From positions 1 through 45,227 of the forward strand of contig JAKOVI010000052.1 of NCBI GenBank assembly GCA_029782135.1: a stretch of DNA of 45,227 bases, written 5' to 3'. Position numbers and translations under genes: made by a program. Positions 32,624 to 38,000 of the stretch are shown here, in pieces; position 1 is the stretch's first letter; every line of letters starts with the position of its first letter. The notes below the pieces were generated by a model. The model did no database searches. It was not told the origin of the DNA and was given only the letters and a program-made list of their open reading frames with translations. This DNA is from Bacillota bacterium (lineage in GTDB: Bacteria > Bacillota > UBA4882 > UBA10575).

Positions 32624-33253
32624 ATGTATGTCCGTAGCCGGATGACCAGGGACCCGTTCACGGTTTCACCGGACACAACAATCGCCGAAGCGCTCGAGTT
32701 GATGCGGGTCAAGAAGATTAATCGCGTGCCGGTGGTGAAAGATGGGAAACTCGTCGGTATCATTACCGAACGGAGGCTGATGGAAGTTTCGCCATCCTCC
32801 GCGACTTCACTCAGCATCTTTGAGATTAATTACCTGCTCGCGAAGACCAAAGTTAAAGAGGTAATGACAAAGAATGTCGTGACCGTCTCTCCTGACGATC
32901 TGTTGGAAACAGCCGCCTTAAAGATGAGGGATAATCAGATTGGTGGACTTCCGGTGGTGGAAGATTCGAAGCTGGTGGGGATTATTACCGAATCGAATAT
33001 TTTTGATGCTTTCATTGAGATCATGGGCTTCCGCGAACGGGGCAGCCGGATCTCGATCCTGGTCCAGGAAGACCGGCCGGGCGTCTTGGCCGAACTGGCC
33101 GGGGTCATTGCCAAATTTGACATCAATATCACCCATTTGGCGATCTACCATGGAGAAATTGTCCTCCGTGTCGACACCCGGAAGCCGGACAAACTGCTTG
33201 AGGCTTTGCGGGAGAATGGATTCAAAATCAATTCGGTCTTCATTACGGAATAG
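32624..33253 (+). CDS. CBS-pair plus ACT-domain protein (AcuB-like)
   Basis: 209 aa. CBS1 (about 5-58), CBS2 (about 75-132) and a C-terminal ACT domain (about 139-205, ISILVQEDRPGVLAELAGVIAKFDINI). CBS pairs bind adenosyl nucleotides and ACT domains bind amino acids, so it is a likely sensor of both. It starts 26 nt after livF with GGAGGGG before the ATG, so it is part of that operon. A role in tuning amino-acid uptake or metabolism is plausible, but the target is unknown. Confidence 0.9.
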   Translation: MYVRSRMTRDPFTVSPDTTIAEALELMRVKKINRVPVVKDGKLVGIITERRLMEVSPSSATSLSIFEINYLLAKTKVKEVMTKNVVTVSPDDLLETAALKMRDNQIGGLPVVEDSKLVGIITESNIFDAFIEIMGFRERGSRISILVQEDRPGVLAELAGVIAKFDINITHLAIYHGEIVLRVDTRKPDKLLEALRENGFKINSVFITE

Positions 33254-33314
33254 GTAAACATTTTTGGCCGGGCGTTGACCAGGTCTTCGCCCTAACAAGA
33301 TTACATAGTGGTTC

Positions 33315-33353
33315 AAAGGCCGAGACTGCCTAAACAAGGTAGTCTCGGCTTTT
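33315..33353 (+). terminator. Terminator of the liv operon
   Basis: CCGAGACTGCC (33320-33330) pairs with GGTAGTCTCGG (33338-33348, one G-T type mismatch), flanked by AAAGG and CTTTT. It lies about 60 nt after the CBS-ACT stop. Confidence 0.85.
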
Positions 33354-33415
33354 GAATGCTAAAAATATTAATAGTTGCTCCGTGCTTTACCCTATTGCTT
33401 TCCCCAGTAAGGGAC

Positions 33416-33522
33416 GGATGGTGTTTTCCGGCGATTTGAATTTCTTGGCTAGTATTCTTAGCGAAGCGGAGCTGAGCTTTAGAATCCTCCAAGAAATTCA
33501 CCGAATAAGGAAAACACCATCC
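33416..33522. repeat. Long two-armed intergenic hairpin (about 107 nt)
   Basis: The arms GGATGGTGTTTTCC (33416-33429) and GGAAAACACCATCC (33509-33522) are perfect complements. Inside, AATTTCTTGG (33439-33448) and CCAAGAAATT (33489-33498) also pair perfectly, and a third short pairing ATTCT/AGAAT lies near the centre. The two internal loops are 9 and 10 nt. It fills most of the gap between the liv terminator and the convergent degV gene. It could be a small RNA, a REP/MITE-like element, or a 3' end of degV mRNA. Confidence 0.7.
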
Positions 33523-33541
33523 AGCCCCTGCTTTTAGTCCT

Positions 33542-34384
33542 TTAGGCAAACTGGACGGCGGCACCGACGGTCCCCGGCCCGGTATGCACGCCAATCACCG
33601 GCCCCACCTGGGCAGTGGTGCTGACCTTAAGGTTAAAGGTGTTCTCTAAAACGGTCTTGAGTTTGAGGGCAGCTTGTTCGGCCGCCCCGTGGGCGACGAT
33701 CATCCTGGCGAGTTTTCTTCCCTGCGCCAGCTCCTGGATCGCATGGACGATCCCCTGGAGCGCCCGTTCTTGGCTCCGGGCGATCCCTTGGGGGACATAG
33801 ATCCCCTCCTCGTTGACCCGGACGATCGGTTTAATTTTGAGCAGGGAGCCGACAAAACCGGAGACTTTACCGATGCGTCCCCCCTTATGCAAATATTCCA
33901 GGGTGTTTAAAGTGAAAAGCGTTTCGATCTTCTTGCGGGCGGCGGCAAGTTTCGCCAGGATCGACGGGATGGCCAGTCCTTCCCTGATTAATTGGGCTGC
34001 CTCCATGACCATTAAACCGGCACCGAGGCTAATCGTCCTGGAGTCAACCAGATGGATCTTTTCTTGCAGTTTTTCCTTGGCCAGGTGGGCGGAGTTTAAA
34101 GTGCCGCTTAATCCGGAGGAGAGGTGGATCGAGAGGATTTCATCATACTCTGTCAACAAACTTTGGTAAAAACGGATAAACTCGTCGGGCGATGGCTGCG
34201 AAGTTTGGGGCAGGACGGAACTATTCGCCAACCGGGCGTAAAATTGCTCGGGGGTAATTTCTCCGTCTTTAAACTCTTCCTCGGCAAAACGCAGCTTTAA
34301 GGGGATGACGTGAACATTCAGCTCTTTCTGCATTTCTTTGGTCAAATCCGCTGTACTGTCGGTTACTAACGCAATCTTGCTCAT
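33542..34384 (-). CDS. DegV family fatty-acid-binding protein
   Basis: 280 aa, normal length. N-terminal TDSTADL segment, TSQPSPDEF (the conserved fatty-acid head-group contact region), SIHLSSGLSGTLNSA, LVDSRTISLGAGLMVMEAAQL, TLEYLHKGGRIGKVSGFVG and IGVHTGPGTVG near the C-terminus. DegV proteins bind fatty acids and, with FakA, feed exogenous fatty acids into phospholipid synthesis. No FakA gene is adjacent. ATG has GGAGGG before it. Confidence 0.94.
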   Translation of the reverse strand: MSKIALVTDSTADLTKEMQKELNVHVIPLKLRFAEEEFKDGEITPEQFYARLANSSVLPQTSQPSPDEFIRFYQSLLTEYDEILSIHLSSGLSGTLNSAHLAKEKLQEKIHLVDSRTISLGAGLMVMEAAQLIREGLAIPSILAKLAAARKKIETLFTLNTLEYLHKGGRIGKVSGFVGSLLKIKPIVRVNEEGIYVPQGIARSQERALQGIVHAIQELAQGRKLARMIVAHGAAEQAALKLKTVLENTFNLKVSTTAQVGPVIGVHTGPGTVGAAVQFA

Positions 34385-34606: not shown

Positions 34607-36166
34607 TTAACCAAGGATTGCTTTTAGATCCTCATCCGGGGTGCTGATCCGTTTAATGTTGAACTTCTCGACCAGGACATTGAGGACATTCTCCGAGAGA
34701 AAGGCCGGGAGGGTTGGCCCCAGATAAATGTTTTTCATCCCTAAGGAGAGCAGCGTAAGGAGAACACAGACCGCTTTTTGCTCATACCAAGAGAGGACAA
34801 GGGTGAGCGGCAGGTCATTCACCCCGCACTCGAAGGCCTCCGCTAAAGCCAGGGCGACTTGAATGGCAGAATAGGCGTCGTTGCATTGGCCCATGTCCAT
34901 CAGCCGCGGCAGACCGCCGATGGTGCCCAAGTCAAGATCATTGAAGCGGTATTTCCCGCAGGCCAGCGTTAAAATAACGGTATCCTTCGGAGTTTTCTCC
35001 ACGAATTCGGTGTAATAGTTCCGGCCGGCGCGGGCGCCGTCGCAACCGCCGACTAGGAAGAAATGTTTAATCGCACCGCTTTTCACCGCGTCGATCACTT
35101 GATCGGCGACCCCCAGGACGGTATGACGGGCAAAACCGGTCGTCAGGACGCTGCCGCCGTTAATGCCGGTCAGTTTCCGGTCTTCCGTCCAGCCGCCGAG
35201 TTCGAGTGCTTTATTGATTACCGGGGTAAAGTCTTTCTTCCCGTTTTGGTCCGGGATATGAACCAGACCCGGATATCCGACTACCGCGGTGGTGAAGACC
35301 CGGTCGGCGTAGGACGGTTTCGGCGGCATCAGGCAGTTCGTGGTAAAAAGGACCGCGCCGGGGACGCCGTCCAGCTCTTTCTGCTGGTTCTGCCAGGCGG
35401 TCCCGAAGTTCCCCTTGAGGTGGGGATATTTTTTCAGTTCCGGGTAAGCGTGCGCCGGAAGCATTTCGCCGTGCGTATAGATGTTGATTCCGCGACCTTC
35501 CGTCTGCTCCAGGAGCTGTTTCAAGTCATGAAAATCATGGCCGGAGACAATGATCAATGGTCCTTTCTCAATCACCGTGCTGACTTTGGTCGGGACGGGA
35601 TGACCAAAGGTCGAGGTATTGGCCTCGTCAAGTAATGCCATACATTTGAGGTTGATCTGCCCGAACTCCATGAGGAGAGCCAACCATTCCTCGACGGTGT
35701 GCTCGGTGCCGAGTGCGCGCAGGCCTTTGTAGAACCAGGCCGTCACTTCCTCGTTTTTCTTGCCGAGGACATAAGCATGCCAGGCGTAGGCCGCCATTCC
35801 GCGTAACCCGAAAAGCAAGGTGGAACGGAGTGAGACGATGTCCGTCTCCCCCTGCCAGAGGGTGGAGGGATCCAGGTCCGCAGCCCCACCCAAACGGTCT
35901 TTTTCTTGCCGGACCAAGGTTGTCAGCTCCCTGATCCGGTCGCCGTCAAAATTGACATTCGTAATCGTGGCAAATAACCCTTGCATGATTAGTTCGTCCG
36001 CCTGCGGGGTCGTTCCCCTTTCCGCAGCGCGGGCCAACCCGACGAGGGCGCCGGTCAGCTCGTCATGGGCATTGGCGACCTCGGGTTTTTTCCCGCAGAC
36101 GCCAACGACGGTACATCCTTTTCCACCCGCAGTCTGTTCGCATTGGAAACAAAACATATTACTCAT
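34607..36166 (-). CDS. hcp: Hydroxylamine reductase / hybrid-cluster protein (class I)
   Basis: 519 aa. The N-terminal cysteine set C6-x2-C9-x8-C18-x5-C24 (CFQCEQTAGGKGC then VGVCGK) matches the class I spacing of strict anaerobes rather than the E. coli class II form. Conserved hybrid-cluster regions follow: SGHDFHDLKQLLEQT, YTHGEMLPAHAYPELKKY, TNCLMPP, and VGGCDGARAGRNYYTEF. Hcp reduces NO/hydroxylamine-type species and guards against nitrosative stress. ATG has AAAGGAGG before it. It lies 194 nt after the ferredoxin-like gene on the same strand, with the divergent CRP/FNR gene beyond. Confidence 0.97.
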   Translation of the reverse strand: MSNMFCFQCEQTAGGKGCTVVGVCGKKPEVANAHDELTGALVGLARAAERGTTPQADELIMQGLFATITNVNFDGDRIRELTTLVRQEKDRLGGAADLDPSTLWQGETDIVSLRSTLLFGLRGMAAYAWHAYVLGKKNEEVTAWFYKGLRALGTEHTVEEWLALLMEFGQINLKCMALLDEANTSTFGHPVPTKVSTVIEKGPLIIVSGHDFHDLKQLLEQTEGRGINIYTHGEMLPAHAYPELKKYPHLKGNFGTAWQNQQKELDGVPGAVLFTTNCLMPPKPSYADRVFTTAVVGYPGLVHIPDQNGKKDFTPVINKALELGGWTEDRKLTGINGGSVLTTGFARHTVLGVADQVIDAVKSGAIKHFFLVGGCDGARAGRNYYTEFVEKTPKDTVILTLACGKYRFNDLDLGTIGGLPRLMDMGQCNDAYSAIQVALALAEAFECGVNDLPLTLVLSWYEQKAVCVLLTLLSLGMKNIYLGPTLPAFLSENVLNVLVEKFNIKRISTPDEDLKAILG

Positions 36167-36215
36167 TTATGGGCCTCCTTTTCATAATTAAAAGACGTTG
36201 AATTCAGCAACAGGC

Positions 36216-36263
36216 GGCCGGCCAAAGCTGTTTTTTCCTGTCGCAGAAGCGGCCGGCCTTTTT
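36216..36263 (+). other. GGCCGGCC hairpin upstream of hcp
   Basis: Two copies of GGCCGGCC (36216-36223 and 36251-36258) can pair with each other or fold on themselves. On the plus strand five T residues follow, as in a terminator, but no plus-strand gene is seen here. It may partly separate hcp from the ferredoxin-like gene. Confidence 0.5.
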
Positions 36264-36360
36264 CGTGATTTGAAACATTACTTCTATCTTATTATATTGT
36301 ATCGTTACGGTTAAAGCAACGAGCTTTGCAGCATAGCCCGGCATTACATGAAATTTATAC

Positions 36361-37086
36361 CTAGGAATCAAGAATCGTCCCGTCGGTGCCAATCGTCACG
36401 ACCTGCCAGGGAATCATTTTCCCGCTCTTGACGAGCGCAGTCTGGACAGCGTGGACGATCCCGCCACAACATGGCACTTCCATCCGGACCACGGTGATGC
36501 TCTTCAAATTATTGTTCGCGATGATCGCAGTCAATTTTTCCGCATAATCAACCTGGTCGAGTTTTGGACAACCAATCAGGGTGATCCGGTTTTTCATGAA
36601 TTCGTTATGCATATCCGCATACGCATAGGCCGTGCAATCGGCGGCGATCAAGAGATGGGCGTTGTTAAAATAAGGAGCATTCACCGGGACCAGTTTGATC
36701 TGGCATGGCCACTGCCGGAGTTGGGACTCCACCGGCGCCACCGGCATGGAAGCTGGAGAAGGAGCCGTTGTGGACGGGCGGATCGTTTTCACCTGTTGCC
36801 CGGGGCAACCGCAGGCTAAAGGCGGTTGGGGTTGGCTGGCCGCCGCCTGCCGGGCGAGATGCTCTTTGACCGCTTCCTCATCAAAGGGCGCCGCCTCCCG
36901 TTCTTCGATCGTAATTGCCCCGGTCGGGCATTCCGGTAAACAGTTCCCCAAACCGTCACAGTAGGATTCGGAGATCAGTTTGGCTTTACCGTTGACCAGT
37001 TGCAGGGCGCCTTCATGACAAGCGTTGATACAAAGCCCGCATCCGTTGCACTTTTCCTCATCAATGGTGATGATTTTCCGTTTCAT
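36361..37086 (-). CDS. Two-cluster 4Fe-4S ferredoxin-like protein, hcp-linked
   Basis: 241 aa from ATG 37086 (AAAGGAGG 9 nt before). A longer start would add a poorly conserved tail. Residues about 10-55 hold two [4Fe-4S] motifs (CNGCGLCINACHEGA and a second CxxxGxCxxxCP in CDGLGNCLPECPTGA). The linker is Pro/Ala-rich with a CGCPG motif. The C-terminal half (about 125-235) has LLIAADCTAYAYADMHN and IGCPKLDQ, then VPCCGGIVHAV. Proteins of this kind are found next to hcp in clostridia and probably supply electrons or sense redox state. Confidence 0.9.
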   Translation of the reverse strand: MKRKIITIDEEKCNGCGLCINACHEGALQLVNGKAKLISESYCDGLGNCLPECPTGAITIEEREAAPFDEEAVKEHLARQAAASQPQPPLACGCPGQQVKTIRPSTTAPSPASMPVAPVESQLRQWPCQIKLVPVNAPYFNNAHLLIAADCTAYAYADMHNEFMKNRITLIGCPKLDQVDYAEKLTAIIANNNLKSITVVRMEVPCCGGIVHAVQTALVKSGKMIPWQVVTIGTDGTILDS

Positions 37087-37191
37087 TTTTAGCAACCTCC
37101 TTTGCCGCACTTCTTTTTGGATTCCGGGCGAGGGGGCTCTTTTTGCCTGGGCAAACTCTCTTCCGGACAAAAGCTTTCGGCAAGATTTTTA

Positions 37192-37220
37192 TTGTCTTTT
37201 CAAGGGTATTGTAATAAAAT
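37192..37220 (+). promoter_or_regulatory. Sigma-A promoter of the CRP/FNR gene
   Basis: TTGTCT (37192-37197), a 17-nt spacer and TAAAAT (37215-37220). Start of transcription expected near 37227, just before the palindromic operator. Confidence 0.75.
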
Positions 37221-37234
37221 AAGGGCGAAAAATC

Positions 37235-37250
37235 GGTAACCTATGTTACC
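37235..37250. promoter_or_regulatory. Palindromic operator of the hcp-linked CRP/FNR regulator
   Basis: GGTAACCTATGTTACC is a perfect 6-bp inverted repeat with a 4-nt spacer, the geometry used by CRP/FNR dimers. It lies between the divergent regulator and ferredoxin-like genes, just after the promoter of the regulator gene, so it could repress that gene and tune both transcripts. Confidence 0.75.
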
Positions 37251-37266
37251 AAAAGGGGATGATCCG

Positions 37267-37959
37267 GTGTATGCCAAATGGAGCCGGCCGTTAACCCGCT
37301 GTTGGCTGTTTGCCGGCGTGGGTGCCGCTGATCTGAATATCATGTTGCAATGCCTTAATCCGGTGGTGAAGGAGTATAAAAAAGATGAATGTGTGACCGT
37401 CGCCGGGGAAACGTTCAGCGGCGTGGGAGTGGTTTTGAATGGGACGGTGCTGGTGACGAAGGAGGATGTCGCCGGCCGGCGGGTCGTGCTCTCCGTTTTG
37501 GGGGAAGGGGACCTCTTTGGCGAGATGGTCGCCTTTTCCCAGGAGAAAAACTGGCCGGCCACCGTCATTGCGCAGCAGGTTTGTACGGTGATGTTTTTAC
37601 CGCCGGAGAAGATCATCGGAAGCTGCCCGCACCAATGTGCCAGCCACCGGTTGTTAATCCATAATATGCTCAGGATTGTGTCGGATAAGGCGCTGCGGTT
37701 GAATAAACAAGTAATGTACCTGGCAATGAAAAGCATCAGGGAGAAGGTTGCCACTTTATTACTTGAAGAATACAGGAGAGCCGGAACGGCTACTTTTATG
37801 CTTCCTTTAAAACGCCATGAGCTGGCGGATTTCTTAAATGTCGCCCGCCCGTCGCTCTCCCGGGAACTGGGGAGGATGAAAGCTGAAGGGATCATCGACT
37901 TCCACCGGTCGACCGTTAAGATCCTAAATCTTGAGAAGTTGAAACAGATGGTGGAGTAG
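37267..37959 (+). CDS. CRP/FNR-family regulator, probable HcpR
   Basis: 230 aa from GTG 37267 (AAGGGG 8 nt before). An ATG at 37243 lies within the operator and has no ribosome site. N-terminal cyclic-nucleotide-binding-like domain (about 10-130, VVLNGTVLVTKEDVAGRRVVLSVLGEGDLFGEMVAF), dimer helix (135-155) and winged helix (about 165-225, LPLKRHELADFLNVARPSLSRELGRMKAEGII). Divergent from an hcp-linked ferredoxin-like gene, so it is probably the nitrosative-stress regulator HcpR. Whether it uses haem or another cofactor cannot be seen. Confidence 0.88.
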   Translation: MYAKWSRPLTRCWLFAGVGAADLNIMLQCLNPVVKEYKKDECVTVAGETFSGVGVVLNGTVLVTKEDVAGRRVVLSVLGEGDLFGEMVAFSQEKNWPATVIAQQVCTVMFLPPEKIIGSCPHQCASHRLLIHNMLRIVSDKALRLNKQVMYLAMKSIREKVATLLLEEYRRAGTATFMLPLKRHELADFLNVARPSLSRELGRMKAEGIIDFHRSTVKILNLEKLKQMVE

Positions 37960-38000
37960 GCGGGAGCGTTGTTCAAGGAGAAAGTGTTGCAAAAAAACAC

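Follow-up and report, generated by a model that had tools for sequence, protein, structure and literature searches.

The palindrome located between the CBS-gene/liv operon and a DegV-like gene in the window (the whole 45,227-nt stretch of Bacillota DNA analysed here) is a short-form copy of a dispersed repeat family, which is absent from Rfam and from the literature searched and enlarges the set of small interspersed palindromes described in bacteria. Taken as a whole, the family is probably a decayed, non-autonomous MITE/REPIN-like repeat spread by a replication-coupled single-strand route, and its mobilising enzyme has possibly been lost.

Hairpin in the window and its neighbours

The 107-nt palindrome at 33416-33522, noticed originally from the letters alone, was confirmed by letters and by folding (MFE of -61.0 kcal/mol on the + strand and -59.1 kcal/mol on the - strand), and none of 200 dinucleotide shuffles matched its fold (z of -7.0 and -6.5, respectively). 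The outer stem, perfect and 14 bp long as predicted, pairs GGATGGTGTTTTCC (33416-33429, +) with GGAAAACACCATCC (33509-33522, +) and corresponds to family helix 1, where both-side changes occur in 13 of 19 pairs. The inner stem was predicted to have 10 bp but has 12, formed by TGAATTTCTTGG (33437-33448, +; family helix 3, 92% of cells paired) and CCAAGAAATTCA (33489-33500, +), the right arm being placed by the fold and the family structure. The internal loops between the two stems are indeed near-equal, with sizes of 7 and 8 nt instead of the predicted 9 and 10 nt, a difference that comes from counting a 10-bp stem. The third pairing expected inside is also present, with 5 bp between 33454-33458 and 33481-33485 (+), and matches family helix 4 (96% of cells paired).

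According to a family profile built from 26 copies, the repeat extends beyond the 107 nt first noted. The window copy covers profile positions 3-227 of 233 and is delimited as a 137-bp palindrome at 33399-33535, which lies on the + strand in the orientation of the family alignment and lacks the apical insert of longer copies. Alignment of the copies places a single apical CGGAG at 33467-33471 (+), representing an empty or precisely deleted insert site.

The profile end of the repeat lies 6 bp from the stop codon (33542-33544) of the DegV-like gene, which is encoded on the - strand at 33542-34384. On the other side, outside the repeat, the CBS-gene/liv operon carries a terminator-like hairpin of its own, as originally stated (33319-33349 followed by TTTT, to 33353, +), and this hairpin is conserved in G001 of the same genus. 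Terminator-like hairpins of differing sequence were also seen after the CBS gene in other genomes of the family, such as AAACTGTC...GACAGTTT in G009 and G011. A consensus scan of 33200-33600 returned no intrinsic-terminator-like site (a GC-rich hairpin with a T run), in agreement with the earlier view that the palindrome is not a simple terminator. No sigma-70 promoter was found around the hairpin, and Rfam searches at gathering and permissive thresholds gave no credible match to it.

Distribution, insertion and anatomy of the repeat family

The repeat was searched for in its own genome (G000; 2.38 Mb, 163 contigs), then in 60 relatives, and then in 29 genomes of the class. Looking for other genomic copies, as the original prediction had suggested, led by BLAST to ~30 places in the own genome, each holding a single arm or both, and to 31 matches of the arm consensus, and the copies are mostly intergenic. 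Carriers make up 12 of the 29 class genomes, every one of them in a single GTDB family (f1, Hydrogenispora-like Bacillota), where they account for 12 of 16 genomes and belong to genera g1, g2, g5, and, weakly, g6. Within the search of 60 relatives, the repeat was absent from the 45 genomes outside this family. When 84,980 species genomes were scanned for the pattern, the named matches were Hydrogenispora sp. and Bacillota MAGs, and no match was obtained in viral contigs, plasmids, or phages. The family is lineage-restricted.

The best identity between copies in the own genome is 89% over the alignment, and since no pair exceeds this value, the family looks old and decaying; by pairwise identity no recent copies were found in this genome, and present activity of the family lacks support. 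Two further divergent copies stand side by side on the same strand at G000:C57:13832-14188 (L171), and on C151 a second, truncated copy is found beside a full one.

Empty sites point to insertion. The CBS gene and degV are adjacent in six relatives (G001, G005, G006, G012, G002, and G009), and the element is present between them in none of the six, indicating that the window copy is a lineage-specific insertion. At a second locus, a 149-bp stretch of G002 holds a copy, and G012 has there 44 bp unrelated to the repeat. At these empty/filled pairs, no target-site duplication was readable for the element as a whole, because intergenic DNA has turned over completely and cannot be aligned between species; 5-bp repeats flank the apical insert only. 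A few copies do keep their place at orthologous sites, in seven multi-genome clusters. With ~30 places scattered over the own genome, many copies in relatives, and an empty orthologous site, the suggestion of a MITE-type repeat was right in kind, and we consider it very likely that the family is a non-autonomous palindromic mobile repeat.

Full-length copies are ~230 bp and consist of two inverted arms (~70 bp each) around an apical insert (~82 bp), with copies ranging from 137 to 230 bp; the insert folds as a three-way junction, and a hand-made consensus of arms plus insert folds at -158.7 kcal/mol (z -17). The insert is present in most full-length copies and is bordered on both sides by a 5-bp CGGAG or CGAAG, while the short copies, including that of the window, have CGGAG once. 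This pattern fits a nested insertion with 5-bp target duplication or, conversely, a precise hairpin deletion; accordingly, the window's short form either represents the ancestral unit or arose by exact loss of the apical hairpin between its CGGAG repeats. Short and long forms coexist in g1, g2, and g5, and many copies are halves that have lost sequence from one arm, either the left or the right. In the stretches examined, the apical insert was not found outside the element, the single off-list match duplicating a listed copy. Conserved, non-complementary tails that differ between left and right lie outside the arms, suggesting that the true ends of the element do not coincide with those of the palindrome.

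Several modules adjoin or enlarge the repeat. In the orthologous copies L067 (G012:C120) and L077 (G002:C10), the insert holds a further stretch of ~70 bp, giving an element of ~296 bp in which nesting has possibly gone one level further, to a third. Another small module, a separate stem-loop of roughly GCTTGCCCCAGCTTGCTGGGGTGGGCGACTACTT, is located in the right flank of L034, L053, L055, and L080 and in the flanks of L081/L039; in G005 it recurs on either side of the repeat. Many copies (e.g., L056 and L061) have, 20-100 bp outside the left arm, a conserved ATGAATAATTACCTTTGTAAGCC tail and a degenerate stretch resembling CTCGTCACTCGTTGCTCG.

Palindrome symmetry and replication strand

Covariation was scored in 26 copies with a hand-written structure. 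Paired cells amount to 89.5%, and changes on both sides were found in 34 of 77 pairs, compared with 15.4 after shuffling and 13-16 after sliding. The covariation between the arms is strong, but copies of one repeat share kinship, and subfamily founders can carry symmetric changes. RNA tolerates G-U but not A-C pairs, and the two swap on the opposite strand. Among the mismatch cells, G-T and A-C are equally frequent (76 vs 69, p = 0.62), and this holds for the arms as well as for the insert, so that neither strand bears the signature of a folded RNA. The covariation in relatives that had been proposed as a check was thus found between the arms, but it is not specific to an RNA strand. According to this count, the symmetry of the palindrome appears to have been kept as DNA during spread of the family, with single copies decaying regardless of the RNA fold. 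Counting G-T against A-C is a cheap way of telling a DNA palindrome from an RNA structure where covariation alone cannot.

The orientation of the copies was compared with the replication strand, for which third-position GC skew, after correction for gene direction, served as the estimate. The comparison covered 93 distinct copies in eight genomes, each with up to 20 kb of surrounding sequence (for the window's own copy, the window itself). Relative to the skew, 80 of the 93 copies have the same orientation (p = 6e-13), as do 72 of 85 independent loci when orthologous loci are merged (p = 5e-11), and all orientation-call margins exceed 21 bits. The window copy is oriented opposite and is one of the 13 exceptions. 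Judging from the sign of the skew, the strand usually found on the lagging-strand template would be the G-rich one, the reverse complement of the family alignment.

Neighbouring genes agree with the copies in orientation in 77.5% (right) and 73.6% (left) of cases, close to the leading-strand base rate of 75.9%. At tandem sites, one orientation relative to transcription prevails (52 vs 11), and the skew is still followed in eight of the 11 sites where the genes run opposite; it is also followed at 14 of 20 non-tandem and seven of 12 convergent sites. A fixed orientation downstream of genes was rejected, as it is mostly explained by replication strand and leading-strand gene bias, the separation of these effects being incomplete; replication and transcription are not fully separated, and an added transcription effect may contribute.

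The arms remain complementary across diverged copies. In the mechanism we propose, the element would spread via single-stranded DNA coupled to replication, and single copies would decay neutrally after insertion. Spread by such a replication-coupled single-strand route is, taken by itself, a tentative proposal, and we regard the chance as somewhat short of even.

Mobilising enzyme, related systems and rival explanations

In size and dispersal, being small (<~500 bp), non-coding, and present in many dispersed copies, the repeat resembles MITEs, and its two inverted arms, which pair as a hairpin with compensatory changes, correspond to those of a REPIN. Candidate enzymes were searched for with models of Y1 (PF01797), TnpB (PF07282), and reverse transcriptase (PF00078), and none of the three turned up in the copy-rich genomes to which its model was applied. 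Matches to Y1 were restricted to G003, which has no copies, and G006, a weak carrier in which the match contains two stops. Mobilisation of the REP/RAYT type was rejected for the lack of a Y1 gene in copy-rich genomes, and membership of IS200/IS605, as defined by TnpA (Y1) and TnpB, for the lack of both in these genomes; retro-mobility was also discarded, the only reverse transcriptase among carriers being one gene in G006. Among the arm matches listed for the own and family genomes, no pair of arms lies 1-3 kb apart as expected of a related full-length element, and no autonomous relative was found among arm matches in these genomes, plasmids, or phages.

REPINs are doublet hairpins whose movement is attributed to RAYTs, and they show compensatory changes between arms as well as single-arm remnants (PMC3116915). 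Like REPIN/REP-BIME (RAYT, TnpA-REP), the present family has extragenic inverted doublets that form one long single-stranded DNA hairpin, with compensatory changes and single-arm remnants (PMC3116915), but its arms are ~3 times longer, no hairpin tagged with a REP tetranucleotide was identified, and no copy-rich genome has a Y1 transposase. IS200/IS605 elements use the lagging-strand template both for excision and for insertion, and their orientation follows replication, as in some other IS families (PMC5371812). The repeat shares subterminal hairpins and, by GC skew, a replication-following orientation with these elements and their palindrome-ended derivatives (PMC5371812, PMC6006769), whereas TnpA and TnpB are both absent from the copy-rich genomes here and no recognised tetra- or pentanucleotide target was seen. 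By description, it is also similar to ERIC/IRU of enterobacteria, an imperfect palindrome of ~127 bp that is intergenic and dispersed, and whose orientation next to genes matters (PMC2229807, PMC3049150). However, orientation here tracks the replication strand, and the 7-bp terminal repeats and TSD of ERIC (PMC2229807) were not seen. BOX and RUP of Streptococcus pneumoniae are likewise small modular repeats (RUP is 107 bp), and the optional inner modules of BOX resemble the optional 82-bp hairpin found here (PMC3049150, PMC2229807); they belong to another lineage and have candidate parent IS elements, of which none was found for the present family.

A classical MITE, i.e., a deleted derivative of a DDE-type IS that is moved in trans as double-stranded DNA via terminal inverted repeats and owes its bias to a fork-targeting transposase, is an unlikely though respectable alternative. 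The long inverted arms, small size, intergenic dispersal, and 5-bp direct repeats around the insert agree with it, and several IS families with clamp-binding transposases show a similar orientation bias (PMC5371812). However, the matches listed include neither a full-length element with the same ends nor the 1-3 kb arm pair, nothing similar was found in plasmids or phages, and the differing conserved tails beyond the palindrome suggest that the inverted repeats are not terminal. The bias might instead be produced by survivorship, in which insertion is random and copies with the stronger hairpin on the lagging-strand template are lost more often. Palindromes are unstable during lagging-strand synthesis, and the strand that usually forms the lagging-strand template has a slightly weaker fold as single-stranded DNA (mean of -52.6 vs -55.9 kcal/mol; 22 of 28 copies). 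Nevertheless, this difference is only ~3 kcal/mol of 55, and half copies have little fold of their own, yet their bias is no weaker (29/32 for left-only and 21/24 for right-only copies, compared with 22/28 for full ones), which makes survivorship improbable.

The palindrome had also been proposed to be a structured 3' UTR or a new small RNA, and neither proposal fared well. A functional 3'-UTR element under selection, protecting or processing the mRNA of the upstream gene in an ERIC-, REP-, or BOX-like manner, would account for the strong fold, for right ends often ≤15 bp from a stop codon, for the one transcription-relative orientation favoured at tandem sites, and for the presence of a few copies at orthologous sites. 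We hold it to be improbable as well, because the equal G-T and A-C mismatches reveal no protected RNA strand despite the strong covariation, Rfam has no match, many copies are halves, relatives lack the insertion at the same genes, and the bias in gene orientation lies close to the rate that the replication strand alone would give. A gene for a small RNA that acts in trans, set between the convergent operons, is highly improbable: the fold is stable on both strands, and the sequence is a dispersed repeat whose orthologous site is empty. No signature of a promoter or terminator was found, Rfam gave nothing at gathering scores, and the covariation is not strand-specific (neither strand has an excess of G-U over A-C).

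Compared with these alternatives, the decayed MITE/REPIN-like repeat spread through single-stranded DNA remains our preferred reading. Orientation by replication strand without a known single-strand transposase provides a testable handle on the spread of orphan palindromes, and a new repeat family is set in a poorly studied anaerobic lineage. It is conceivable, if rather unlikely, that palindromes spreading through single-stranded DNA at forks with an enzyme other than Y1/RAYT, TnpB-linked systems, and reverse transcriptases represent an unrecognised replication-coupled mobiliser in Hydrogenispora-like Bacillota.

At the window locus, the element is probably inert, its effect being at most an extra hairpin on the 3' end of the degV mRNA. 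Further along the window (34607-38000), the translations suggest a hybrid-cluster-protein-like ORF (34607-36166), a 4Fe-4S ferredoxin-like ORF (36361-37170), and a divergent Crp/Fnr-like regulator (37243-37959), an arrangement that looks like a nitrosative-stress locus.
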